Below, one piece after another: positions 8,964 through 46,373 of a stretch of DNA of 64,000 nucleotides; the stretch's first letter is position 1, and each line of letters opens with the position of its first letter. Below the pieces are notes generated by a model that did not search any database, was not told the origin of the DNA, and was given only the letters and a program-made list of their open reading frames with translations. The translations under genes were made by a program, and so were the position numbers. This DNA comes from a virus, in IMG/VR virus record IMGVR_UViG_3300036770_007547, positions 1 through 64,000 of that record; one strand, 5' to 3'.

Positions 8964-10209
8964 ATTCAGGCAAGTAATCTAGTATGCGGTTGCCACGACG
9001 TGACTCCAACAGCTTGATGTAATGCACTAGATCTCGAACGCGATGCGATTCGTCTGGTGCCGATTCGAGATATTTTATATAGCTCTGGCAATCCTGATGG
9101 ATCTGGGAGCGCACCCAGTCCGGATGTCGTGTGTTCAAGATCTGTGGCTGGGTCGAGGTTGATTCCACCAGGGTCGACAAACGATCTTGGGCCATCCGTC
9201 GTAGATCCTGTGGCAGTACACTGATTCGCATCATGGCCGGTTCGTTGAGGAAATCACAGCTTTCCACGGCGATGCTGTTGTCCAAGGCGTAGCGATAAAC
9301 AGTGTCAAGGTGCAGTATGGAAAACAACGTGGGCGTGATGCGTATCTGCATGAGCCAGCCATGTGATTGGCTGACCAGGCGCCACCGTTCCAACAATGCT
9401 CGGACATCATTGATGTGGCTGGGCCAACGCAGATAGTCGTTGAGATCATGCAGGCACTCGATGCTGACCCCCACATTGACTTGATGGAATCTCTCGAGCT
9501 GGGTTATCAAGTCGTCGTCCCAGACCGTGAGATTGGTGGTGAAACCAATGGTGACTTTGTGGGAGAGATCCGAGTCTATCAGCGCCTGCAAGATGCGTTG
9601 GAAGGCCGGAGTTATCATGGTCTCGCCGCCAATGAAATGCAGATATGCCAGGTTGGGAGTCTGCGACAGCATGTCAACAAATTGAGACAGCAAGGTGTCA
9701 TCGTCACACCAGGCCGGTGGCGGCATGCTGTTTATGATGCCCAATTGCAAATGTTCGCGGGCCAGTCGAGAACTGCTGTGCGGTGTGCAGAATACACAGG
9801 CCGAATTGCAGTAGTTGCCTAGATCTATTTGCCAGTCCTGCGGCAACAATTCGGTGTCGCCGTGATGGTCCATGCTGTGCTTGAACTCGTGTCGCCAGGG
9901 CGAACTCACCACAGTTTTGTCAAAGGGATCACGTATCCCAGTTTTCAAGAGTTGTTTCTGCCGACCACTGGGCTTGCCGTGTGACTCCATGATCCGGCAA
10001 GGTTGGCAACCCGAGACTTCGTTGCCTTCCAGCAGATCCAAGCGCAACGGCGACAATTTTTTCTGGAACCAAGTCACTGGGCTAACATCTTGTATGCGAT
10101 ACTGGCCCACTCTCTGTGTTTTGTCGCACCAACGGCAGTATTCGAAACTGCCGTTGTTGTTGATCCTGGCATGAAACCAGGGACTGCTACAAAAAGTCTT
10201 GTCAAGCAT
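8932..10209 (-). CDS. Radical SAM protein with twitch (SPASM-like) architecture
   Basis: 425 residues. N-terminal Cys region ([26 protein letters not shown]) precedes the core CxxxCxxC in [17 protein letters not shown] and the FIGGETMI glycine motif. This matches the other radical SAM gene at 1911 and twitch-domain proteins I recall from marine myophages. Reaction unknown. It overlaps clpP by 8 bp upstream and the beta-rich gene at 8963 downstream. Confidence 0.85.
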
Positions 10210-10792
10210 CCCGATTCACAATGACCCGATCTGCCAGACCATAATCCACGCTCTGCTGGGCTGTCATGAAGTTGTCGCGTTCCATGTCGGACTTCAATTC
10301 ATCAAAACTCTTGCCAGTGTGACGGACATAGATCGTGGTCAGCACTTCTTTCCAACGCAACAGTTCTCTGGCTTGGATTTCCACGTCTGTGGCTTGCCCT
10401 GATGCGCCGCCAAGGGGTTGATGGATCATGTGGCGAGCATTGGGCAGGATCGATCGATGTCCTTTCTCACCGGCTGCAGCCAACAACGAACCCATGCTTG
10501 CGGCCTGTCCCATGACAATGGTATGCACCGGACAACGGATAAACTGCATGGTATCATAGATGCTCATACCTGCGGTGACGCTACCGCCTGGGCTGTTGAT
10601 GTAGAAATTGATGGAACGCGCCGGGTCCTCGCTCTCCAGGAACAGCATCTGTGCCACGATGAGACTGGCTGAATGGCTGGAGACTTCGGTGTCCAGCATG
10701 ATGATGCGATCTCGGAGGAGACGGCTGTAGATATCGTAACTTCGCTCGCCCTTGGATGTGTGTTCCAGGACGATGGGTACTAGATTGGGCAT
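10202..10792 (-). CDS. clpP: ATP-dependent Clp protease proteolytic subunit ClpP
   Basis: 196 residues, the normal ClpP length. The Ser-His-Asp triad is complete: Ser99 in GQAASMG, His124 in HMIHQPLGG, Asp173 in [22 protein letters not shown] provides the oxyanion-forming glycine loop. ClpP forms the heptameric peptidase chamber fed by ClpX or ClpA. It follows a second ClpP-type gene (18 bp apart), and a ClpX and a ClpS are encoded at 24-27 kb, so the phage can supply a nearly whole proteolytic system. Confidence 0.95.
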
Positions 10793-10810
10793 GTTGTTTC
10801 CCTTAAAAGA

Positions 10811-11371
10811 TCAACTGATGTGGTCGCAGATGTTGTATTTCAATGCTTCTTCGGCCGAAAGATACACATCCTGGGCCGGCAACAAAATTTGTCGGATAAC
10901 ATCGTCCTCGAGGCCGGTGCATTTTTTATAGAGACTGATCATGCGCAGTTGCGTGAGTTCGAATTCTTTCACTGTGGCAAACAGCTCATGGGCCTTGCCC
11001 GAATTGTGCCACGAAAATTGGTGGCTGAGGATCGAAGTGTTTGGTGTCAACACCCGGCGGCCTGGGGAACCTGAAATGAATATGCAAAGACCGGCCGATG
11101 CGATCGATCCCAGACCCACGGTCTTGATAGGGATGGTACTGCTGTTCATGACATCGATCAAGGCAAATGCGTCTGACAAATTACCGCCATCGCTGTTGAT
11201 CATCAACAGCAATTCTTTCTTTTTGCGTTTCCTGACATGATTTTCGTGCAGGATCCACTCGATTATGGGCTTGATGTTGTCTTCGTCCACGACCCCCATC
11301 AACACCATGATACCATGGTCTTGCAGGGCTTCGCCTGGACTTTCGTATTGTAGATCTTTGTCGGTAGTCAT
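10811..11371 (-). CDS. Divergent ClpP-type peptidase
   Basis: 186 residues from MTTDKDLQYES, with AAGGA before the ATG. The fold follows ClpP, and all three catalytic residues are present: Ser92 in GSIASAG, His117 in SILSHQFS, Asp168 in AQDVYLS. The N-terminal axial region and the handle helix differ strongly from the neighbouring ClpP. It may form hetero-oligomers with that ClpP, as paired ClpP rings do in some bacteria, or work alone; this is inference. Confidence 0.88.
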   Translation of the reverse strand: MTTDKDLQYESPGEALQDHGIMVLMGVVDEDNIKPIIEWILHENHVRKRKKKELLLMINSDGGNLSDAFALIDVMNSSTIPIKTVGLGSIASAGLCIFISGSPGRRVLTPNTSILSHQFSWHNSGKAHELFATVKEFELTQLRMISLYKKCTGLEDDVIRQILLPAQDVYLSAEEALKYNICDHIS

Positions 11372-11387
11372 AGCGTCCTTGAAAGAA

Positions 11388-11422
11388 ATAGCGGGCGTCA
11401 CCATTGGGCAACGGCCCGCTAT
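11388..11422 (-). terminator. Hairpin between lipoprotein gene and clpP-like gene
   Basis: ATAGCGGGC and GCCCGCTAT form a perfect 9 bp stem with a 17 nt loop, followed on the minus strand by TTTCTTTC. It probably attenuates transcription after the lipoprotein gene ending at 11435; the interrupted U-tract makes this moderate. Confidence 0.55.
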
Positions 11423-19945: not shown

Positions 19946-20475
19946 ACATTCTCCCGTGATATCACACCGGTGATCTGGAGGGTATAACGATGTGTGCGCC
20001 CCAGGTTGGCTGCGAGATGCGGTGTGCTTCCGTGCCAGTACACCCCATCTCCGGCCTGCCAACCAGTGATGGGAGTGCCGTCTATTTCAAAATAATGACC
20101 GCTCTGCCAGGGTTCCATGAACAACACATATCTCCGTATGGTGTTTGTGTCTGACACATCATAGATGTTGCGAAACTTGCTGTAGGTGTCGCTGTGTTCG
20201 GGCAGAACATCTCCAGATCTCATGCGATACAGAGACCAGCTCCAGTGTCGCATGGGTATCTGTTCCCGTATCTGTTGCATCCAGCTTGGTTCACTGCGGC
20301 GCATGTCGTAGAGATCTCCAGTGAACCGGGTCTGGGTGAACCCCAGCCCCCGCCATTCGAGTGTGTCACTGGGGTTGTTGAATTCTTCGTGATCATACTC
20401 AAGCTCGCGATGGCTCAGTGCCCAGACCGGATCTAGATAGATCCTACCAAACTCAGCTTGCTCGGGTATTACCAT
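19942..20475 (-). CDS. Aspartyl/asparaginyl beta-hydroxylase-like 2OG oxygenase
   Basis: 177 residues. HxD in LPEHSDTY near residue 94, a distal His in STPHLAANLGRTHRYTLQI, and Arg for 2-oxoglutarate following it. The family hydroxylates Asp/Asn side chains or small molecules. It overlaps the sugar dehydrogenase upstream by 23 bp and the amidinotransferase downstream by 4. Confidence 0.78.
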   Translation of the reverse strand: MVIPEQAEFGRIYLDPVWALSHRELEYDHEEFNNPSDTLEWRGLGFTQTRFTGDLYDMRRSEPSWMQQIREQIPMRHWSWSLYRMRSGDVLPEHSDTYSKFRNIYDVSDTNTIRRYVLFMEPWQSGHYFEIDGTPITGWQAGDGVYWHGSTPHLAANLGRTHRYTLQITGVISRENV

Positions 20476-21694
20476 AATGGATCACTGTCATGCCCGGCAT
20501 GTCGGGCATCTGGCGCCAGGGATCAACGATCACCGAGCCTGGCAAAAATTCAAAGTAGTTGCGATCTTCGCCTTGCTCGCCGGTATAACCATATGTGATG
20601 TTGCGATTGTGCGCCATCAGGATCACTGCGGGTTTGGTAAATGTGGACATCACGCCAGTGTCATCGTCGGCCAAGGGATCTACATAGAACACCCCACGCC
20701 CGTGACGCTCTACATAATGTCCCACCAAAGTGGAATATGATCCGATGCAATAGGGAACATCGGGCTTGTAGGCCTTGCCATGTATCACGATGGGCAGATT
20801 GCCGTTTTCTTCGCTGGTGCGCACCAAGAAGTTGGCAAGATTCTGGGCTTGTATCTCTCGGGCATGCATGATGGTGTCAAACATGTCATAACCGAGATCG
20901 TATTCTTTGGCCAGCCAGCGCAGAGCGATGTTGTCCCGGGGATGGCATGCACCAGCATCACCCATGCCTGCGGTCATGTACTTGGGTCCCATGATACGCA
21001 TGGTGCTCTGGGCCAAGGCGTCTGTGACAACATCTACATTGATGTTGCCGATCCTCATGGCAAAGTCCTGGATCATGTTGACGATGCCCACCTTGGCCGA
21101 AATGAATGTGTTGTAGAAGATCTTGATGGCTTCGCACTCGTCCCAGGTTCCTGTCACGTATCTAGGATCGTTTTGCATGAGCGGCTGATAGATGTCGATG
21201 AGTTCCTGCATTTCGGCAGGGTCACCGCTTTCGCTGCCGATCATCACCATCTCAGGGTTGACCATGTCCCACTTCACTGATCCCATGGCGATGAGATAGG
21301 GATTGTACAGGAACTGATGCTTTTTGTTCAACAACGATGCAAAATGCCGGCGTGTGGTGCCAGGTAGCACCGTGGAAATCAACACCACTCGCTTGGGCGA
21401 GTCTGCGTATTGATTCACTGCCACCAGACTGTCTTTCACGGCCTGATGGCCAAAATCTCTTGGTTCCATGTGGCTACTGGGCACACTGCCATCATAGCCT
21501 TGTTCGTGTGGAGTGGGCACAGCGATGAAGATCCAATCACTTTCTCTCACAGTTTCTTCGATGCTACAAACCTTGACCGATTCGCTGCTGCGTGGGTAAA
21601 TATCGTACCCGCGCACAGTATACTGTTCTGCGAACACTTCGGCGCAATCCAGGCCAAGTTTACCAAGACCGATAAATCCAATATTTTTAGACAT
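20453..21694 (-). CDS. ugd: UDP-glucose/GDP-mannose 6-dehydrogenase family protein
   Basis: 413 residues. NAD-binding GFIGLGKLGLD at the N-terminus, the STVLPGTTRRH segment, and the catalytic Cys in GDAGACHPRDN. Family enzymes oxidise a nucleotide sugar to the uronic acid. This implies a role in modifying host surface glycans or a virion glycan. AAGGA precedes the ATG; the start overlaps that of the divergent plus gene (CATG). Confidence 0.9.
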   Translation of the reverse strand: MSKNIGFIGLGKLGLDCAEVFAEQYTVRGYDIYPRSSESVKVCSIEETVRESDWIFIAVPTPHEQGYDGSVPSSHMEPRDFGHQAVKDSLVAVNQYADSPKRVVLISTVLPGTTRRHFASLLNKKHQFLYNPYLIAMGSVKWDMVNPEMVMIGSESGDPAEMQELIDIYQPLMQNDPRYVTGTWDECEAIKIFYNTFISAKVGIVNMIQDFAMRIGNINVDVVTDALAQSTMRIMGPKYMTAGMGDAGACHPRDNIALRWLAKEYDLGYDMFDTIMHAREIQAQNLANFLVRTSEENGNLPIVIHGKAYKPDVPYCIGSYSTLVGHYVERHGRGVFYVDPLADDDTGVMSTFTKPAVILMAHNRNITYGYTGEQGEDRNYFEFLPGSVIVDPWRQMPDMPGMTVIHYGNTRAS

Positions 21695-23003
21695 GAATAT
21701 TCCTTTTGATGAAATCTATAACTTTCTCAATCGTATCACACATGATGACACAATAATTTATCGCTTTTTTCCGCATGGCAGCAAAAAACTACTGGACCTG
21801 GGAGAGCTGTGTGACAGCGGGCGAGATTGGACCGATTGGAACGACAGCCGATTCATGATCATGCACGATCAAGAGCCCTTGGATTTCGATGCTCATGCAC
21901 CCGACCACATCATCTCGGTGTTGCCCCAGTGGTTGCATCGACATGTGCCGGCCCTGGGATGGTACGGCGAAAATCAAAGATTCATCAGCGAGATCGCGCA
22001 ATACAATCTCGCCGCACTGTGCTTTTTGGTCACCAGCGATGTCAATTTGATCTGTCACAGCGAAAAGAACAGCCAGCATGTGCGACGGTATCGAAACATT
22101 GGACTCGAACCAGTGTACTATTGGAGCCATGCCATGATCGCTAGAGACTGGTATCGCTATGCCTGGCACGATCCTGCACTGCAATATCACGAACCGTATC
22201 AGCGCGATTTCTTGATCTACAATCGTGCTTGGTCGGGTAGCCGAGAATATCGCCTCAAGTTCGCAGATCTCGTGATAGAGTCGGGCTTGGTCAGCACCTC
22301 GCACATGGGATTCGCGCCCACTGATCAAGGTGGCAGCTATCTCGATCACCGATTCCACAATCATGATTTCAAGCCCACCAATGATCTCACAGTGTTGCCG
22401 TTGAATACCAGCACCCCGGATCACAGTGCCACATATGACTGGCGCGACTATCAACGCTGTTGGTGGGAGGTGGTGTTGGAAACTTTGTTTGATGATCCTC
22501 GTCATCATCTCACCGAAAAGATCTTGCGACCCATAGCCTGTGGCAAACCATTTATACTGGCTGCCACCCCGGGCAGTCTCGGATATCTAAGAGAGTATGG
22601 GTTCAAGACCTTTGACGGAATCATCGACGAGGGCTATGACAGCATCGTTGATCCTTTGTCGAGACTGCATGCCATCATCAAAACCATGAAAAGCATACAG
22701 AGCTGGGATCAACAGCAACGCAGCTACTATCATGGACGCCTGCAAGAAATATGCGCCCACAACAAAGAACTGTTTTTCAGTGATCGATTTTATCAGCATG
22801 TGTTGGGCGAATTCAAGCACAACTATGATGTTGCCGTTACAGTCAGCCGGCAACATCACCGAGGTCAGCGTTGGAAGATGGCGAGACGGTGGCTTTCAAG
22901 CCACCACCAGCACCGTCTTCGATTGGTCAGCGACAACGAACGCCGCACGCGAGACGACATCAAGAATTTGTTGCTGCGGTGCCATCACCGCGGCGATCAA
23001 TGA
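21693..23003 (+). CDS. Glycosyltransferase-like protein (TEK family), copy 1
   Basis: 436 residues. The C-terminal domain has HHLTEKILRPIACGKPFILAA, then GSLGYLREYGFKTFDG and DEGYDSI, the same layout as genes at 48631 and 51154. The TEK motif with following Ala/Pro-rich helix resembles fucosyltransferase-type GT-B domains. The last 60 or so residues are unusually His/Arg-rich and may be an extension or a reading-frame artefact. A GATAAAT box lies 16 nt upstream. Sugar donor unknown. Confidence 0.75.
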   Translation: MNIPFDEIYNFLNRITHDDTIIYRFFPHGSKKLLDLGELCDSGRDWTDWNDSRFMIMHDQEPLDFDAHAPDHIISVLPQWLHRHVPALGWYGENQRFISEIAQYNLAALCFLVTSDVNLICHSEKNSQHVRRYRNIGLEPVYYWSHAMIARDWYRYAWHDPALQYHEPYQRDFLIYNRAWSGSREYRLKFADLVIESGLVSTSHMGFAPTDQGGSYLDHRFHNHDFKPTNDLTVLPLNTSTPDHSATYDWRDYQRCWWEVVLETLFDDPRHHLTEKILRPIACGKPFILAATPGSLGYLREYGFKTFDGIIDEGYDSIVDPLSRLHAIIKTMKSIQSWDQQQRSYYHGRLQEICAHNKELFFSDRFYQHVLGEFKHNYDVAVTVSRQHHRGQRWKMARRWLSSHHQHRLRLVSDNERRTRDDIKNLLLRCHHRGDQ

Positions 23004-23369: not shown

Positions 23370-24161
23370 ATGCAATTTGCCTTTGATCTAATTTCAGACC
23401 TACATGTGGACAGCTGGCGCCAGAGCCTGGACTGGGAACACCAAGCCACGAGTCCTGTGTGCATTATAGCAGGAAATGTCACGGGAGATCAAGCCGAGCT
23501 ACACCGTACACTCACCGACATATCCAAATGCTACAAAGCCACTATCTACATCGACGGCGAAGGCGAGCACATCAACGATTGCAGCGACATCGGCCGCAAC
23601 TATCACGACATAGATCGGTTGTGCCAATCCATAAACAATCTCGTGTATCTACAGGACAACTGTGTGATCATGAACGGGGTGGCGGTGATCGGAACCAATG
23701 GTTGGTGGACCTGGGACTTTGATCCCGACATCGATGTCGATCAAGCTCAGGCCTGGTTTTGTCATACCACGCATCATCACACCAACGTCACTGAAGTGAT
23801 ATCCAATCTGGCCAACAGCGAGGCCAAGTATCTCTCCAGCTCGGTGTTGAAACTGCAAAGACATCCCGAGGTGCGCAAGATCGTGGTGGTCACGAATTGT
23901 GTGCCCTATCATTGCTTGATCGAACACGACCAAGACCTACGATCGAAATATGATGTGGGAGTGATCGGCAACAAATGGATGCGGCAGGTGATTGGCAACG
24001 ATCTCGAGAGCAAGATCAGTCATTGGTGCGTGGGACGATATCCTGGCATGTTTGACAAGGTCATCGATGGTGTGAGATTTGTCAGCAACCCCCGAGGACA
24101 TGCACAAGCATCGTGGAACCAAACAGTTTATTTTCCACGACGCTTTGAGATTGATATCTAG
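23370..24161 (+). CDS. Degenerate metallophosphoesterase-like protein
   Basis: 263 residues with the calcineurin-like layout but altered motifs. ISDLHVD (metal 1) is intact; the GD motif reads AGNVTGD; the expected GNHE position reads DGEGEH; the GHxPxH end reads TNCVPYH. Several metal ligands are replaced, so activity may be lost or changed. The short leader after TTAAATA suggests leaderless or near-leaderless translation. Confidence 0.75.
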   Translation: MQFAFDLISDLHVDSWRQSLDWEHQATSPVCIIAGNVTGDQAELHRTLTDISKCYKATIYIDGEGEHINDCSDIGRNYHDIDRLCQSINNLVYLQDNCVIMNGVAVIGTNGWWTWDFDPDIDVDQAQAWFCHTTHHHTNVTEVISNLANSEAKYLSSSVLKLQRHPEVRKIVVVTNCVPYHCLIEHDQDLRSKYDVGVIGNKWMRQVIGNDLESKISHWCVGRYPGMFDKVIDGVRFVSNPRGHAQASWNQTVYFPRRFEIDI

Positions 24162-24472
24162 ACTTCTTCGGGCTCGAGTTTGATTTGCAAGGGATGGCCT
24201 TGGTTCCGAGCAGCATGAGTGATCTCGATGCCTTTTTGTTCGGCCACTTCGTAGGGCAACACTGCCACCACTGCTGAACCAGACTGATGTATGTCATGCG
24301 TGATCTGGGTGGCTGTGTCCAAGGTATATTCGAAATGCTCGATAAGGCTTTCGATTACAAATTCTATCGTGGTCTGATTGTCATTCATGTAGATGACCTT
24401 GAACATCGACGGCTCTTTGACGCCAAGCACAGCACGGGTTTTGATTTTTGTATTCGCGTCCAATTGTGACAT
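24158..24472 (-). CDS. clpS: ClpS adaptor (N-end rule)
   Basis: 104 residues. The substrate-pocket residues are present: Asn30-Asp31 in YMNDNQT and His62 in DIHQSG, and the VVAVLPYEVAEQKGIE segment is typical ClpS. ClpS delivers N-degron proteins to ClpA in bacteria, yet the phage encodes ClpX, not ClpA, in this window. A late box overlaps the end of hsp20 39 nt upstream. Confidence 0.9.
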   Translation of the reverse strand: MSQLDANTKIKTRAVLGVKEPSMFKVIYMNDNQTTIEFVIESLIEHFEYTLDTATQITHDIHQSGSAVVAVLPYEVAEQKGIEITHAARNQGHPLQIKLEPEEV

Positions 24473-24486
24473 ATGGATTCCTCAGA

Positions 24487-24508
24487 AGTGGGCCCGAGTG
24501 GGCCCACT
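24487..24508 (-). other. GC-rich hairpin in clpS leader
   Basis: AGTGGGCCC and GGGCCCACT form a perfect 9 bp stem with a 4 nt loop between the clpS late box and its ATG. No U-tract follows, so it is more likely an mRNA-stabilising or regulatory hairpin than a terminator. Confidence 0.55.
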
Positions 24509-24510
24509 GT

Positions 24511-24517
24511 TATTTAA
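24511..24517 (-). promoter_or_regulatory. Late promoter box TTAAATA for clpS
   Basis: TTAAATA overlapping the hsp20 stop codon, 39 nt upstream of the clpS ATG. Confidence 0.45.
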
Positions 24518-24963
24518 GCCTTGTTGTTTTCGGATTGATACGCGATGGAGATCTTGCGTGGTTTCATCGCTTCGGGTACCACTCGTTCCAGCTTGATCCT
24601 CAAAATACCTTCCTGCATTTCCGCCGATTGCACTTCTACATAATCGGCAAGAGTGAACGTGCGGGTGAAGCTGCGACTGGAAATACCATGATGCAGATAC
24701 TCCACGTTTTCTTCCACACCAGCACCGTTGCCTTGGATGGTGAGGCGTCCTTCATGGAATTCTACCTCGATGTCGCCTTGACGGAATCCGGCTGCGGCCA
24801 CTCGGATCTCATAGCTGTCATCCCCGGTCTTGACGATGTCATAGGGAGGGTAGTTGTTGCCGGCAGCAGAATCGATCTGATTGGTGATGCGATCAAACAA
24901 TCGATCCACACCGATGGTGTTGCGATAAAACGGGGAAAGGTCAAACGCTGTGATTTTAGTCAT
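24514..24963 (-). CDS. hsp20: Small heat-shock protein Hsp20 family
   Basis: 149 residues with a complete alpha-crystallin domain: YDIVKTGDDSYEIRVAAAGF, GVEENVEYLHHGIS, RSFTRTFTLADYV, and the EGILRIKLER end. Opening TAFDLSPFYRNTIGVDRLFD is the IbpA-like N-terminus. It holds unfolded proteins. GGAG precedes the ATG, and the upstream TATAAATA box is a perfect T4 late consensus, implying strong late expression. Hsp20 genes are common in T4-like cyanophages. Confidence 0.95.
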   Translation of the reverse strand: MTKITAFDLSPFYRNTIGVDRLFDRITNQIDSAAGNNYPPYDIVKTGDDSYEIRVAAAGFRQGDIEVEFHEGRLTIQGNGAGVEENVEYLHHGISSRSFTRTFTLADYVEVQSAEMQEGILRIKLERVVPEAMKPRKISIAYQSENNKA

Positions 24964-25026
24964 GATGTCTTCTCCTTTGTTAAGCAAGTTGACTAATGTG
25001 TAGCCCGACTATCGGCACTACAATGT

Positions 25027-25034
25027 TATTTATA
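25027..25034 (-). promoter_or_regulatory. Late promoter TATAAATA for hsp20
   Basis: Exact match to the T4 late consensus, 63 nt upstream of the hsp20 ATG. Confidence 0.75.
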
Positions 25035-25053
25035 CAGCAGATATCGCGAACTG

Positions 25054-25272
25054 TCAAGATTTTCCGGCATTCCTGACTCGGTAATCACAACCAGCCCAGG
25101 TCATAAAAAACAAAGTGAAATGCTCGGGGTAGTTCAGTCCCAGACGGTATTTCAATCCGCGGGCCACTTTGGTGGTAAAAGGCACATGATGTATCCGGGC
25201 CCATTCGCGGACCTGATATTCCAACGTGTCAAAATCGACATCCACATCAAGGATGTCAAACTCAATGTACAC
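25054..25272 (-). CDS. Small conserved phage protein
   Basis: 72 residues from a GTG start 1 bp beyond the bS21 stop. DILDVDVDFDTLEYQVREW then HFTLFFMTWAGCDYRV. No recognised domain; it is cotranscribed with bS21. Confidence 0.65.
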   Translation of the reverse strand: MYIEFDILDVDVDFDTLEYQVREWARIHHVPFTTKVARGLKYRLGLNYPEHFTLFFMTWAGCDYRVRNAGKS

Positions 25273-25273
25273 T

Positions 25274-25495
25274 CTAGTACATTCTTGGGGGCAGTTGCTG
25301 ACCTTTGATGTAACGCTCCCAGCGTTTTTTGGCCAGGCTTTTGGCGGTCTTGCGACGTGTGGTGGGTTTGACGTAGGTCTCTCGCTCGCGTAGATCCATG
25401 AGCAGACCCGAATTCTGTATCTTCTTCTTGAACTTGCGCAGAGCCTTTTCGACGTTGCCGTCGGTGACTATAACACTTCTTCCATGTAGAGCCAT
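25274..25495 (-). CDS. rpsU: Ribosomal protein bS21
   Basis: 73 residues. VTDGNVEKALRKFKKKIQNS, LRERETYVKPTTRRKTA and the terminal PPRMY match bS21, including the basic C-terminus that reaches the anti-Shine-Dalgarno end of 16S rRNA. AAGGAG precedes the ATG and a TAAATA box lies 27 nt upstream. Phage bS21 genes are known from some marine and giant phages and are thought to bias host ribosomes. Confidence 0.92.
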   Translation of the reverse strand: MALHGRSVIVTDGNVEKALRKFKKKIQNSGLLMDLRERETYVKPTTRRKTAKSLAKKRWERYIKGQQLPPRMY

Positions 25496-25505
25496 GATTC
25501 TCCTT

Positions 25506-26702
25506 TTACAATGATGATGGGGTATTTACCAACTCGGTGTCGATATCTACACACTTTATTCCTCGATCGTGATAGTCGCGCAGATGATACATGTGCGGCA
25601 TCAACACTCGCTCGAGCTCGCTGTGCAAGGCACGAGCTCCGGTGCCCGAACCACGAGATCGATCCACCAAGGCTTCCAGCGCCGGCCTTGACAAGTTGAG
25701 ATCCACCCCATCTTGCTGGAAGATCCAACGATACTGATCCACTAGATTGTTGCGCACGTCAGTGAGTATGCGCATCATGTCTTCGCGATCCAAGAGATCG
25801 AGATTTATCACTGTGGGAAATCTTCCCACGAACTCGGGTATCATGCCAAACTTGACCAGGTCGTCGGGTGTCACTGCACTGAGAGACACCGACTTTTTCT
25901 CGGGCAAAGGATTCTGGAATCCCATGCTTGAGCCAATCAATCGACGTTGTATGATGCTTTCCAGCCCCACGAAGGCTCCACCGGCTATGAACAGTATGTT
26001 GGTGGTGTCGATCTCTAGATTCTCTCCGTTGGGATGTTTGCGTCCGGGCTGTGTGGGAACTCGGCATTCGGTGCCCTCTACCAGTTTCAGCAAGGCCTGT
26101 TGCACGCCTTCGCCACTCACGTCTCGGGTGATCGAAGAGCTTTCGCTTTTTCGAGCGATCTTGTCGATCTCGTCCACGAACACGATTCCTCGTTCGGCAC
26201 GTTCGATGTTGTAGTCAGCAGCCGCATACAATCTACTGATCAGACTTTCCACGTCATCGCCCACATATCCGGCTTCGGTGATGGAAGTGGCATCGGCGAT
26301 CACAAAAGGCACATCCAGATACCGAGCCACAGTGCGTGCCAACAGAGTTTTTCCCGAGCCCGTGGGACCCAGCATGAGTATGTTGGCTTTTTGTATTTCC
26401 GGCGATGACTTGTCGCGATTGATACGCTTGTAGTGATTGATCACGCTCACGGCCAACACTATCTTGGCACTGTCTTGACCGATCACATAGTCGTCCAAGA
26501 ACGTCTTGAGCTGTCTGGGATCATGGTTTCTTTGTTCAACCGAATCGTGTGCTTCGGAAGCTTCGGGGTCGGTCAGTAGTTCCTGGCACAATGACACACA
26601 TTCATTGCAGATGGCCGAATTTTCACTGACTATGAGTTTTTGTACTGCGTCCTTGTGCTTGCCGCAGAATGCACAAGAATCAAGTGCTTGCTGTTCTTTC
26701 AC
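25506..26702 (-). CDS. clpX: ATP-dependent unfoldase ClpX
   Basis: 398 residues. C4 zinc-binding domain (Cys10, 13, 32, 35), Walker A GPTGSGKT at 112-119, pore loop GYVG at 145-148, Walker B IVFVDEID around 173-180, RKH loop at 221-223, sensor region GSGTGARAL. The ClpP-docking tripeptide, normally IGF, reads MGF at 260-262. It unfolds tagged proteins into ClpP. The altered docking tripeptide may tune it to the phage ClpP. Confidence 0.96.
   Translation of the reverse strand: MKEQQALDSCAFCGKHKDAVQKLIVSENSAICNECVSLCQELLTDPEASEAHDSVEQRNHDPRQLKTFLDDYVIGQDSAKIVLAVSVINHYKRINRDKSSPEIQKANILMLGPTGSGKTLLARTVARYLDVPFVIADATSITEAGYVGDDVESLISRLYAAADYNIERAERGIVFVDEIDKIARKSESSSITRDVSGEGVQQALLKLVEGTECRVPTQPGRKHPNGENLEIDTTNILFIAGGAFVGLESIIQRRLIGSSMGFQNPLPEKKSVSLSAVTPDDLVKFGMIPEFVGRFPTVINLDLLDREDMMRILTDVRNNLVDQYRWIFQQDGVDLNLSRPALEALVDRSRGSGTGARALHSELERVLMPHMYHLRDYHDRGIKCVDIDTELVNTPSSL
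25523..25528 (-). promoter_or_regulatory. Late promoter box TAAATA for bS21
   Basis: GGTAAATACC on the minus strand 27 nt upstream of rpsU, within the 3' end of clpX. Confidence 0.45.
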
Positions 26703-28327
26703 TGATTCTCCTGATCAAGCCTTTTTTCTATCTGTTGACGTTCGGCATCGGTGAGCAATTCGGGGTCGTATTCACCGGTACTGATCTTGTTGATGAGATG
26801 TTCGATGTAGGCATTGTTGTAACTATAGCTGTCTGTTTGTGATTTGTCAACTTCGATCCATTTCGTACCGTTGAATTTGTAGAGCAAACTCGGCATCTGA
26901 TCGATGCGCACATACATGTCGCCCTTGACGGGGGTTTCGGGCCAAGCTGGACCAAATCCAACATCGCGACGTATGCGTGGATCGTCGAGATATTCCATCC
27001 AGCCTGGCTCGGGTATGCGACCCATGATCACCAGGCGTCGTTGCTCTTTGAGAGTTTTTCCGGGATTGTCGTTTTTCCAAAGATGTTGTGCTTGCTTGAT
27101 CACTGGATCTTCGCTGACCGGATCTTCTTCGGCGATGAAATCAGGCACTGGCGCCAACTCTTGTTGTAGCTGTGCCATGTGTTCGTCGCTCAACGATGCA
27201 GCCTCCGTGGACTCGGTGGGTTTGCTCCAATCGATGTCGGGATTCTGATAAAAGTATTTGCCATTTTCAGGCATCGCTGTGTGTGCTGGTTGTTTTGGCA
27301 CATAAGGTTCGGGTTCTTCGTCCGACACGTCATCCAGCACTTGATAGTCCACTAGACGTGGGGCCACATCTTCTCGAGATTGGTCTCGGGTATCTTGATC
27401 GACCACGGGTGTAGCGTCCAATTCATGAGATCCTTGGTCATCATGTACGGCATCCACATCCAAATCTTTGTCAACACTGGTATCATTAGCGGGTGCATCT
27501 GGAGTCTCCGGTTCGGTAACGATGGCTGCTTTTCTTTCCCGGTGCCATTTCAGGCTTTCGGTGGCGGCCAGCAACATCATGATGGCCAGTGGATCAAACA
27601 CTGCCACCAATAATACAATCATCCATCTCACTGCACGTTCCAGGAGATTCTCATCGGGATTGTCGCCGTAAAGCAAAGCGGCCACATAACGTATGGGACC
27701 GACTTCGGCCTCGATCTTTCTCAGATCTCGTGCCATGGGCGCTTTCTCTTCCTGGAGTTTTACTATGCGAGCCTGTGCGGCTTCGATGGTGCGAGTGAGA
27801 TTGTCTCGGTCTCGGGCCTGGCTGCGGCGCACAGCAAGAGCACGCTCAGCCGAACTTTGGGTATAGGTGCTTCCATCTCGACGAGTTATCTCTCGATCAT
27901 TGCCGGCCGATTGGATTCCGATCACTGCGTCATCCAATTGCTTGATCAGCGATCGTGCGTTTTCGATGGTGTCTCGCTCGTTTTTTATTTTCTCATCTAT
28001 CAGCGCGACCTGTGCGGCCACATCACCGGTGGGCACAGCTTGATCTAGGTGTGCTTTTGACAAAAATCCAAAAATTCCCATGCTGGTGATCAGCATGAGT
28101 GCTGCCACTGCGGGCACCAAATACAACTTCATGGCCAACTTGCACTGGCCCCAATGTTCGTGCAGCCAAACCGTGACCACCAGTTTGGCAGCTTCCAGCA
28201 CACCACCCATGATGATGATGGGCAACACCGAGGCCGAAAATATAGCCGTCAAGCCCACTATGCTGTAAAATGCGGCGATGACGCTCAAGGCCAGCGCCAC
28301 CAAGAACATGAGTGCAGTCAGGATCAT
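26699..28327 (-). CDS. Large membrane protein with coiled coil and acidic tail
   Basis: 542 residues. Membrane helices near 1-25, 28-50 and 68-92, a coiled coil about 105-215 (ARSLIKQLDDAVIGIQS, QARIVKLQEEKAPM), another helix pair about 232-260 (MIVLLVAVFDPLAIMMLL), then a long acidic region and a conserved end with MYVRIDQMPSLLYKFNG. I recall equivalents in marine T4-like phages. Role unknown. The ATG lies exactly 5 nt after a GATAAATA box, so the mRNA is predicted to be leaderless. Confidence 0.8.
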   Translation of the reverse strand: MILTALMFLVALALSVIAAFYSIVGLTAIFSASVLPIIIMGGVLEAAKLVVTVWLHEHWGQCKLAMKLYLVPAVAALMLITSMGIFGFLSKAHLDQAVPTGDVAAQVALIDEKIKNERDTIENARSLIKQLDDAVIGIQSAGNDREITRRDGSTYTQSSAERALAVRRSQARDRDNLTRTIEAAQARIVKLQEEKAPMARDLRKIEAEVGPIRYVAALLYGDNPDENLLERAVRWMIVLLVAVFDPLAIMMLLAATESLKWHRERKAAIVTEPETPDAPANDTSVDKDLDVDAVHDDQGSHELDATPVVDQDTRDQSREDVAPRLVDYQVLDDVSDEEPEPYVPKQPAHTAMPENGKYFYQNPDIDWSKPTESTEAASLSDEHMAQLQQELAPVPDFIAEEDPVSEDPVIKQAQHLWKNDNPGKTLKEQRRLVIMGRIPEPGWMEYLDDPRIRRDVGFGPAWPETPVKGDMYVRIDQMPSLLYKFNGTKWIEVDKSQTDSYSYNNAYIEHLINKISTGEYDPELLTDAERQQIEKRLDQENQ

Positions 28328-28331
28328 AAGA

Positions 28332-28613
28332 TTATTTATCGCTTCTTGGGTGGTTATCACTGCTTACAATAACCGCTAGCTTGGTGGCCACCCAAGTGGC
28401 CCAGCGCTCATCGGGCACGTCGAACCATACCGGTATCACCCCATGATTGTGAACGAGTTTGCGGCGCACTCGGGGCTGTGTGTGCCACTGGCTGCCGAAC
28501 CAATCCCGGCACTCGCGCATCACAGCATACCACTGTTCGATGGTATGTACCCACACATAGAATCGGTGCAGATCCGGGGTCGTTTTTTTAAGTGAGCTAG
28601 ATTCCATCGACAT
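28332..28613 (-). CDS. Conserved small phage protein, Trp-rich
   Basis: 93 residues from MSMESSSLKKTTPDLHRFYV. FYVWVHTIEQWYAVMRECRD and VWFDVPDERWATWVATKLAV. No ribosome binding site is clear; the leader upstream is the hairpin-dense region. Function unknown. Confidence 0.65.
   Translation of the reverse strand: MSMESSSLKKTTPDLHRFYVWVHTIEQWYAVMRECRDWFGSQWHTQPRVRRKLVHNHGVIPVWFDVPDERWATWVATKLAVIVSSDNHPRSDK
28333..28340 (-). promoter_or_regulatory. Late promoter box GATAAATA (leaderless candidate)
   Basis: GATAAATA, ATCTT, ATG (28327). It overlaps the 3' end of the gene at 28332. Same 5 nt gap as the boxes before 754 and 4156. Confidence 0.55.
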
Positions 28614-45847: not shown

Positions 45848-45854
45848 TATTTAA
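45848..45854 (-). promoter_or_regulatory. Late promoter box TTAAATA
   Basis: TTAAATA, 8 nt before ATG 45839; near-leaderless. Confidence 0.45.
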
Positions 45855-45865
45855 CGGCAAAGAAA

Positions 45866-45888
45866 AACCCCGGAATGATTCCGGGGTT
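45866..45888 (-). terminator. Strong intrinsic terminator
   Basis: AACCCCGGAA and TTCCGGGGTT form a perfect 10 bp stem with a 3 nt loop, followed by five Ts on the minus strand. It ends the transcript of the gene at 45909. Confidence 0.9.
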
Positions 45889-45908
45889 GTTGGTCACGCT
45901 GGTGACTG

Positions 45909-46373
45909 TTAAGCGAGCTGGAAGCCAGGCTCAGTGACAGTGGTGCCAGAAACATCAACACCGCGCACAGTGCCCGAGCTGTCAGTGATTTGCACGTTGC
46001 CCAGAGCTTGCAGAGCCGACTGCAGAGTTGCAGCGGTCCATGCGTCTTGGGGATACACAGCAACACTGATCTGTCCGGTCGTAGCACCTTCGACTTGATA
46101 CATGGCGATGGTGGCAGTCTCTTGGATAGCCTGATTGATGTTCTTGACAACACCGGGATCAAACACACCAGAGGTGTATGTTCCAAGCTCGGCGCGCAGA
46201 TCGATCGCAGTAGCGCCAGTATCCTTGACCAGCACTTTGAAGAAGTCCAGCTTGGGGCCGGCCATCTGTACCAAAGCGTCGGTAGAACCGATGTTGCCGG
46301 TCTGGCTACCGTTGTTGATGTCCAGTGCAAATACTGGTTGCGAGTCACCGTTAAAGGGATTGAAAACAGCCAT
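45909..46373 (-). CDS. Conserved structural protein, likely abundant virion component
   Basis: 154 residues. FNGDSQPVFALDINNGSQTG, GPKLDFFKVLVKDTGA, NQAIQETATIAMYQV and the terminal VSGTTVTEPGFQL recall a conserved marine T4-like virion protein. It has a perfect TATAAATA late promoter, AGGAG ribosome binding site and a strong terminator, so it is a monocistronic, highly expressed late gene. Decoration or tail role is inferred. Confidence 0.8.
   Translation of the reverse strand: MAVFNPFNGDSQPVFALDINNGSQTGNIGSTDALVQMAGPKLDFFKVLVKDTGATAIDLRAELGTYTSGVFDPGVVKNINQAIQETATIAMYQVEGATTGQISVAVYPQDAWTAATLQSALQALGNVQITDSSGTVRGVDVSGTTVTEPGFQLA

Follow-up and report, generated by a model that had tools for sequence, protein, structure and literature searches.

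We analyzed a 64,000-nucleotide (nt) window of the IMG/VR virus record IMGVR_UViG_3300036770_007547, the whole record (G000) being 222.8 kb long, and studied a group of protein-quality-control and translation genes within it. On the minus strand, these genes follow in the order clpX, rpsU (encoding the ribosomal protein bS21), an open reading frame (ORF) of 72 amino acids (aa), hsp20, and clpS. The features of this group given below with window coordinates, the membrane-protein gene before it, and the two ClpP-family genes all lie on this strand. The group was compared with 44 IMG/VR loci found by a ClpS scan (51–72% ClpS identity), which we refer to as the relatives.

The gene clpX (25506..26702) encodes a full-length ClpX unfoldase with the Pfam domains zf-C4_ClpX and AAA_2. 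It scored 519.9 bits with the NCBIfam ClpX model (cut-off 359) and retains the C4 cysteines, the Walker A/B motifs, GYVG, RKH, and the [IM]GF ClpP-docking loop, which reads MGF in the window. For rpsU (25274..25495), the Pfam match of 58.1 bits was accompanied by a TIGR00030 score of 59.8 bits, above the family cut-off of 28.95. The 72-aa ORF (25054..25272) gave no family match in Pfam, PHROG, or NCBIfam searches; only weak homologues (27–32%) occur at the equivalent place in six relatives. The product of hsp20 (24514..24963) is a small heat-shock protein with an alpha-crystallin domain (Pfam HSP20, 65.8 bits). It matched phrog_432 with 131 bits, and its best NCBIfam relatives, IbpB and IbpA (128 and 125 bits), stayed under the cut-off. 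Its start is likely the ATG at 24963 and not the TTG at 24987 of the ORF list, because AAAGGAG stands before the former. Finally, clpS (24158..24472) encodes the N-degron adaptor (Pfam 83.7 bits, cut-off 23). Its AlphaFold2 (AF2) model, having a predicted local distance difference test (pLDDT) value of 79.8, matched Caulobacter ClpS (3g19) with a template modeling (TM) score of 0.94 by target, and E. coli ClpS (1mbu) with 0.93.

Upstream, clpX overlaps the gene of a 553-aa membrane protein (26699..28360) by 4 nt (26699-26702), and therefore the unit starts further upstream than clpX. The membrane protein had no Pfam or NCBIfam match and a single weak PHROG match (E = 1e-4). Its AF2 model (mean pLDDT 73) consists of long helices, and the structure search with this model returned no named match.

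In front of virion genes, T4-type late promoters have a –10 element resembling TATAAATA. TAAATA boxes of this kind were found before rpsU (25523-25528, within the 3' end of clpX), before hsp20 (25027-25034), and before clpS (24511-24516, overlapping the hsp20 stop codon); the full TATAAATA is present only at hsp20 within this block. The hexamer occurs 80 times in the record on both strands, which is about 0.02 per 120 nt of strand, and the chance of finding it before all three genes is about 1e-5. In the relatives, which are not mutually independent, the 120 nt preceding the gene contained TAAATA in 39/39 cases for bS21, 43/44 for ClpS, and 34/43 for Hsp20, against a background of 6.9%. For ClpX, the count was 2/41, and clpX has no conserved late box. 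TAAATA proved to be the hexamer most enriched upstream of the predicted genes of the record (9.5-fold). The genes that it precedes include those of a baseplate wedge, a baseplate hub, and further tail or virion proteins, as well as a helicase and ribonucleotide reductase. The assignment of the three boxes as T4-type late promoters, with the corresponding late timing, is well supported by these sequence data.

The synteny was judged by tblastn of the block proteins against the 44 loci. Most relatives display the order membrane protein, clpX, rpsU, a variable gap, hsp20, clpS, and a convergent 263-aa gene. Hsp20 adjoins ClpS in all 44 loci. ClpX is absent only from cut loci, and bS21 from a few more (L047, L051, and L053). 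The 553-aa membrane protein is found beside or near clpX in nearly all relatives, and the convergent 263-aa gene was not found beside clpS in L012, L013, and L016. The gene cluster is real and is conserved in the relatives.

The block also occurs in its phage versions on contigs of metagenome-assembled genomes labelled Rickettsiales (L120) and Pelagibacter (L121); L120 has the same gene order, and bS21 was not detected on L121. A bacterial source of the phage ClpS could not be placed by the genome scan, which gave five metagenome-assembled contigs, at least four of them (L118–L121) with other block genes. ClpS and ClpX matches labelled 'Acinetobacter phage MD-2021a' were set aside, their neighbors (rpiA, argC, aroF, and tig) looking like a bacterial chromosome. 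The contigs concerned (CAKLQF020000005/8 and CAKLQH020000005/43) are likely mislabelled assemblies; the two neighborhoods seen are those of the CAKLQF contigs.

The gap between rpsU and hsp20, which holds the 72-aa ORF in the window, is a slot for different cargo. Counting the loci where both flanks were seen, GroEL with GroES was present in 8, DnaK in 9, a short gap in 17, and other cargo in 5 (examples are L018:5432-7408, L026:5521-7410, and L031:5535-7433). GroEL and DnaK never occurred together in the slot. The slot labels cluster on a quick ClpX tree, the starred branches of which force at least three changes for GroEL and at least two for DnaK; the DnaK-bearing phage L031 falls within a GroEL clade. 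Apparently, the slot cargo has been exchanged more than once.

These results bear on a first-pass annotation of the window, which had proposed a dedicated late proteostasis–translation module of four contiguous genes. The identities and coordinates of clpX, bS21, hsp20, and clpS were all confirmed by Pfam, and the genes do form one run, except that the 72-aa ORF breaks the strict adjacency of rpsU and hsp20. The TAAATA boxes described there are present, exceed chance, and are conserved in the relatives. Together with the enrichment before virion genes and the conserved order, they bear out a late cluster of this kind. The notion of a single module is not supported, given the separate boxes of rpsU, hsp20, and clpS, the lack of one for clpX, and the variable slot.

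ClpS binds the N-domain of ClpA or ClpC, and ClpX has no such domain. In the E. coli complex, salt bridges link ClpS residues E82 and K84 to R86 and E23 of ClpA, and ClpS E79 bonds to ClpA E28 and T81 (PMC12493166). We aligned 49 ClpS rows (44 relatives, the window, and four repeat fetches), and E79, E82, and K84 were identical in all of them. On the other side of the interface, E23, E28, T81, and R86 were identical in the four full phage ClpA proteins compared. These four proteins likewise retain KYR and GYVG and have an IGF loop at the IGL position; IGF and IGL loops dock onto ClpP. The corresponding [IM]GF loop of ClpX is kept in 44/44. The ClpS contacts to the N-degron (N34, D35, T38, H66, and L99) are invariant in the alignment. 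The pocket carries L32Y in 49/49 and M62T in 48/49 rows, and M40, the ClpS gatekeeper (PMC12493166), is changed to Ile in the window.

Clp_N had no match in the record, and the ClpA proteins of four relatives gave nothing beyond weak cross-matches to clpX, the record being partial. The extent of the missing part emerged from an ORF comparison with the 225-kb relative G003. The segments at 1–55 kb and 179–222.7 kb of G000 correspond to 61–0 kb and 225–178 kb of G003, respectively. The 117-kb arc at 61–178 kb of G003 has almost no counterpart in G000, and G003 clpA, at 106.5 kb, lies inside this arc. Full-length clpA, in the form of Clp_N-bearing frames of about 756–779 aa, was present in seven of the eight relatives of at least 129 kb. 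The sizes of two relatives, 344 kb for G002 and 361 kb for G006, would put the full genome at about 340 kb. The failure to find a family-B DNA polymerase in the record fits incompleteness and is not proof of it. On the whole-record comparison with G003, ClpS without ClpA is best explained by the incomplete contig.

The record does encode ClpP. A canonical clpP with the Ser–His–Asp triad is located at 10202..10792 (Pfam 264.6 bits; NCBIfam subfamily 305.5 vs cut-off 249), next to a divergent ClpP-family gene with aligned triad residues at 10811..11404 (Pfam 97.3 bits). The latter is also near the PHROG head-maturation proteases and recurs in several relatives. In one of these, G009 (L074), the divergent gene has one in-frame TAG. 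With the docking residues and the ClpP loops conserved and clpP in the record, ClpS–ClpA–ClpP and ClpX–ClpP are the expected pairings.

The first-pass annotation had overlooked both ClpP-family genes (10202-11404). Its observation that ClpA is not seen holds for the record, which is only a partial genome. It had suggested that ClpS may reroute host ClpA or work with the phage ClpX. A need for either is not supported, since clpA is present in seven of the eight largest relatives and in the Pseudomonas phage PA5oct, and both proteins keep the residues of the docking interface. The annotation had named a clpA at another genomic site as evidence to the contrary. Such a gene is found in the lineage; the missing arc leaves any clpA of this particular genome out of view.

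The record also contains a permuted transfer-messenger RNA (tmRNA) of the betaproteobacterial type (L010:689-1081, minus strand; G000 ~215689-216081), encoding the tag ANDEVFALAA (RF04321 123.5 bits, RF01850 116.1 bits). In G003, the tmRNA tag is ANDEQFALAA, and about 34 tRNA genes are present. The tmRNA type hints at a betaproteobacterial host. Phage tmRNAs are known already (PMC7162821). ClpS inhibits the degradation of ssrA substrates by ClpAP (PMC9663308), and because ClpS turns ClpAP away from these substrates, the tmRNA may link the cluster to ssrA disposal. The tRNA array of G003 (L098:12544-12622) includes a tRNA with a CUA anticodon. Taken with the in-frame TAG of G009, amber read-through is possible in some relatives.

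We read the locus as a proteostasis cluster that a T4-like jumbo phage expresses late, the phage lineage probably having its own Clp proteolytic set; we assign this reading a probability of roughly 0.6. During bulk virion-protein synthesis, the phage bS21 would enter the ribosomes and favor phage messages, and Hsp20 would hold unfolded or aggregating proteins. ClpX–ClpP would clear products with an ssrA tag as well as others, among them peptides that have received their tag from the phage tmRNA. ClpS would dock on the ClpA N-domain (that of phage ClpA where present, possibly that of host ClpA too) and direct proteins with an N-degron to ClpAP, while substrates with an ssrA tag would be left to ClpXP. 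A late box may not be needed for clpX if this gene is transcribed together with the overlapping membrane-protein gene. Several observations weigh against this reading. The record lacks clpA, and the expectation that the missing arc holds it comes from the relatives, one of which, G007 (265 kb), has no Clp_N match. The pocket changes make it possible that the substrates or the N-degron preference of ClpS differ. The docking residues match those of E. coli, and host ClpA is expected to share them, so the sequence is compatible with either partner. The cluster genes may not all be co-timed, as clpX lacks a late box.

The same points bring up the partner of ClpS. The phage could supply the adaptor only, with ClpS redirecting host ClpAP, as proposed for other jumbo phages. 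The lack of clpA in the record and the E. coli-like docking residues agree with this, and a host-ClpAP role has been put forward for phage ClpS in general (PMC7824862). We regard it as unlikely, given that the long-record relatives, PA5oct, and Vibrio phage 2.275.O carry their own ClpA, and that the record ends before the arc holding clpA in G003. It is highly improbable that ClpS serves as an adaptor for the phage ClpX. The two genes do share one conserved cluster, but ClpS keeps the residues that dock on the ClpA N-domain in every relative, the lineage encodes ClpA, and ClpX has an ordinary C4 zinc domain without the ClpA/ClpC-type N-domain bound by ClpS. The genes might also have no joint function and merely share a late-promoter region that tolerates cargo, in line with the individual boxes of rpsU, hsp20, and clpS and the varying content of the rpsU–hsp20 gap. 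This seems quite unlikely to us. Phages with a ClpS of only 51–72% identity to that of the window still have this order, and PA5oct retains it as well. The slot cargo is repeatedly a chaperone (GroES–GroEL in 8 and DnaK in 9 loci), with several changes forced by supported branches.

Directly after the late boxes of hsp20 and clpS, we found hairpins at 24999..25022 (–10.3 kcal/mol) and at 24487..24508 (9-bp stem, –19.0 kcal/mol, z = –4.1), respectively. The hairpins were judged sequence by sequence against shuffles, the pair types being standard by construction; a MAFFT alignment of the clpS leaders mis-registered stems of unequal length and was not used for this purpose. Among the distinct clpS leaders, 35 of 36 folded with z below –2 (mean z –4.9), through 29 different stem sequences. 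The same held for 24 of the 27 distinct hsp20 leaders (mean z –3.1). We rejected the idea that late genes carry a 5' hairpin as a rule, as essentially only clpS, hsp20, and the gene at 45851-46348 have one among the late-box genes of the record. T4-type transcription would start about 5 nt past the box, and hence part of the clpS stem would lie outside the late transcript. For the stem to be complete, the RNA would have to be a read-through product or come from the opposite strand, on which the stem resembles a weak terminator. It is possible, although we do not favor it, that the hairpins are intrinsic terminators of opposing plus-strand transcripts and not leader elements. In the plus-strand reading, GTTATTTAAG comes after the clpS hairpin, which scored as terminator-like. 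In almost every relative, the stem starts 0–6 nt away from the box, as a terminator would require. However, the T-run is short and interrupted, the region has no more terminator-like matches than its shuffled versions have on average (4 vs 4.1), and L012 and L016 keep strong hairpins though the convergent gene was not found beside clpS. The two hairpins are candidates for a leader element, the 3' end of the upstream mRNA, or an opposite-strand terminator.

A more specific arrangement can be put forward only tentatively. The locus might be a late cassette for folding or degradation, in which the fixed clpX, rpsU, hsp20, and clpS flank a GroES–GroEL/DnaK slot and hsp20 and clpS have hairpin leaders. 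Disposal of N-degron and ssrA substrates would be carried out by a phage-owned ClpS–ClpA–ClpX–ClpP–tmRNA set, with ClpS (Y32, T62) reading N-termini other than those read by the host protein.

The closest cultured counterpart is the Pseudomonas phage PA5oct (NC_071039), which has the same order, clpX – rpsU – hypothetical – queD – hsp20 – clpS. It has its own ClpP and a ClpA-like gene in its genome, and TAAATA with a hairpin before hsp20. It differs in its host, in having queD in the slot, in a ClpS of only 32.5% identity, and in that no TAAATA was found in the 90 nt before its rpsU or its clpS. The Agrobacterium phage Atu_ph07 encodes ClpX, ClpA, ClpB, ClpP, and ClpS, with proposed roles that include aggregate clearance (PMC6102473). 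In that phage, however, the genes are scattered (gp2, gp292, gp492, gp676, and gp708), and bS21 and Hsp20 are not mentioned in the paper. The Moraphages are large aquatic phages with ClpA, Hsp20, and DnaK/DnaJ, but they have Bacteroidota hosts, and neither a ribosomal protein nor S21 is mentioned for them (PMC12619734).

A pelagiphage bS21 was found to incorporate into 70S ribosomes (PMC6375957), and according to the available portions of Chen et al. (2022), phage bS21 is expressed together with late structural genes (PMC9723584). The same portions report Hsp20 (n = 127) and Clp protease pVOGs (n = 50 and 47) within 10 genes of bS21 across 900 phages. They place bS21 beside capsid or terminase genes in the focal clades, and ClpS, late boxes, hairpins, and a chaperone slot are not among the features they describe. 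The jumbo-phage survey of Iyer et al. (2021), as far as its text was available, notes ClpA, ClpX, and Hsp20, and ClpS as a host-ClpAP adaptor; there the host protease is assumed, and that text describes no cluster (PMC7824862). Phage Clp/ClpS sets, as in Atu_ph07, and Hsp20 or Clp genes near bS21 are thus already published. We found no paper naming the whole gene set in the open-access literature. Nor did we find an earlier description of the constant gene order with its late boxes, of the hairpin pair, of the GroEL/DnaK slot, or of the matching conservation in ClpS and ClpA, all of which are apparently unreported.

Elsewhere in the window, a UDP-glucose dehydrogenase-like gene (phrog_9148, 289 bits) and an adjoining 436-aa gene occupy 20453-21694 and 21693-23003. 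Several weak paralogue matches to the 436-aa gene are spread over the record.

Earlier accounts mostly list the Clp, Hsp20, and bS21 genes of phages singly. The cluster, the ClpS–ClpA docking residues, ClpP, and the tmRNA together suggest that some jumbo phages do not only borrow from the host but come with a complete protein-quality-control pathway of their own. PA5oct, a cultured phage with the same gene order, makes the cluster testable, and the GroEL/DnaK slot represents a natural experiment on the folding help that large virions require.

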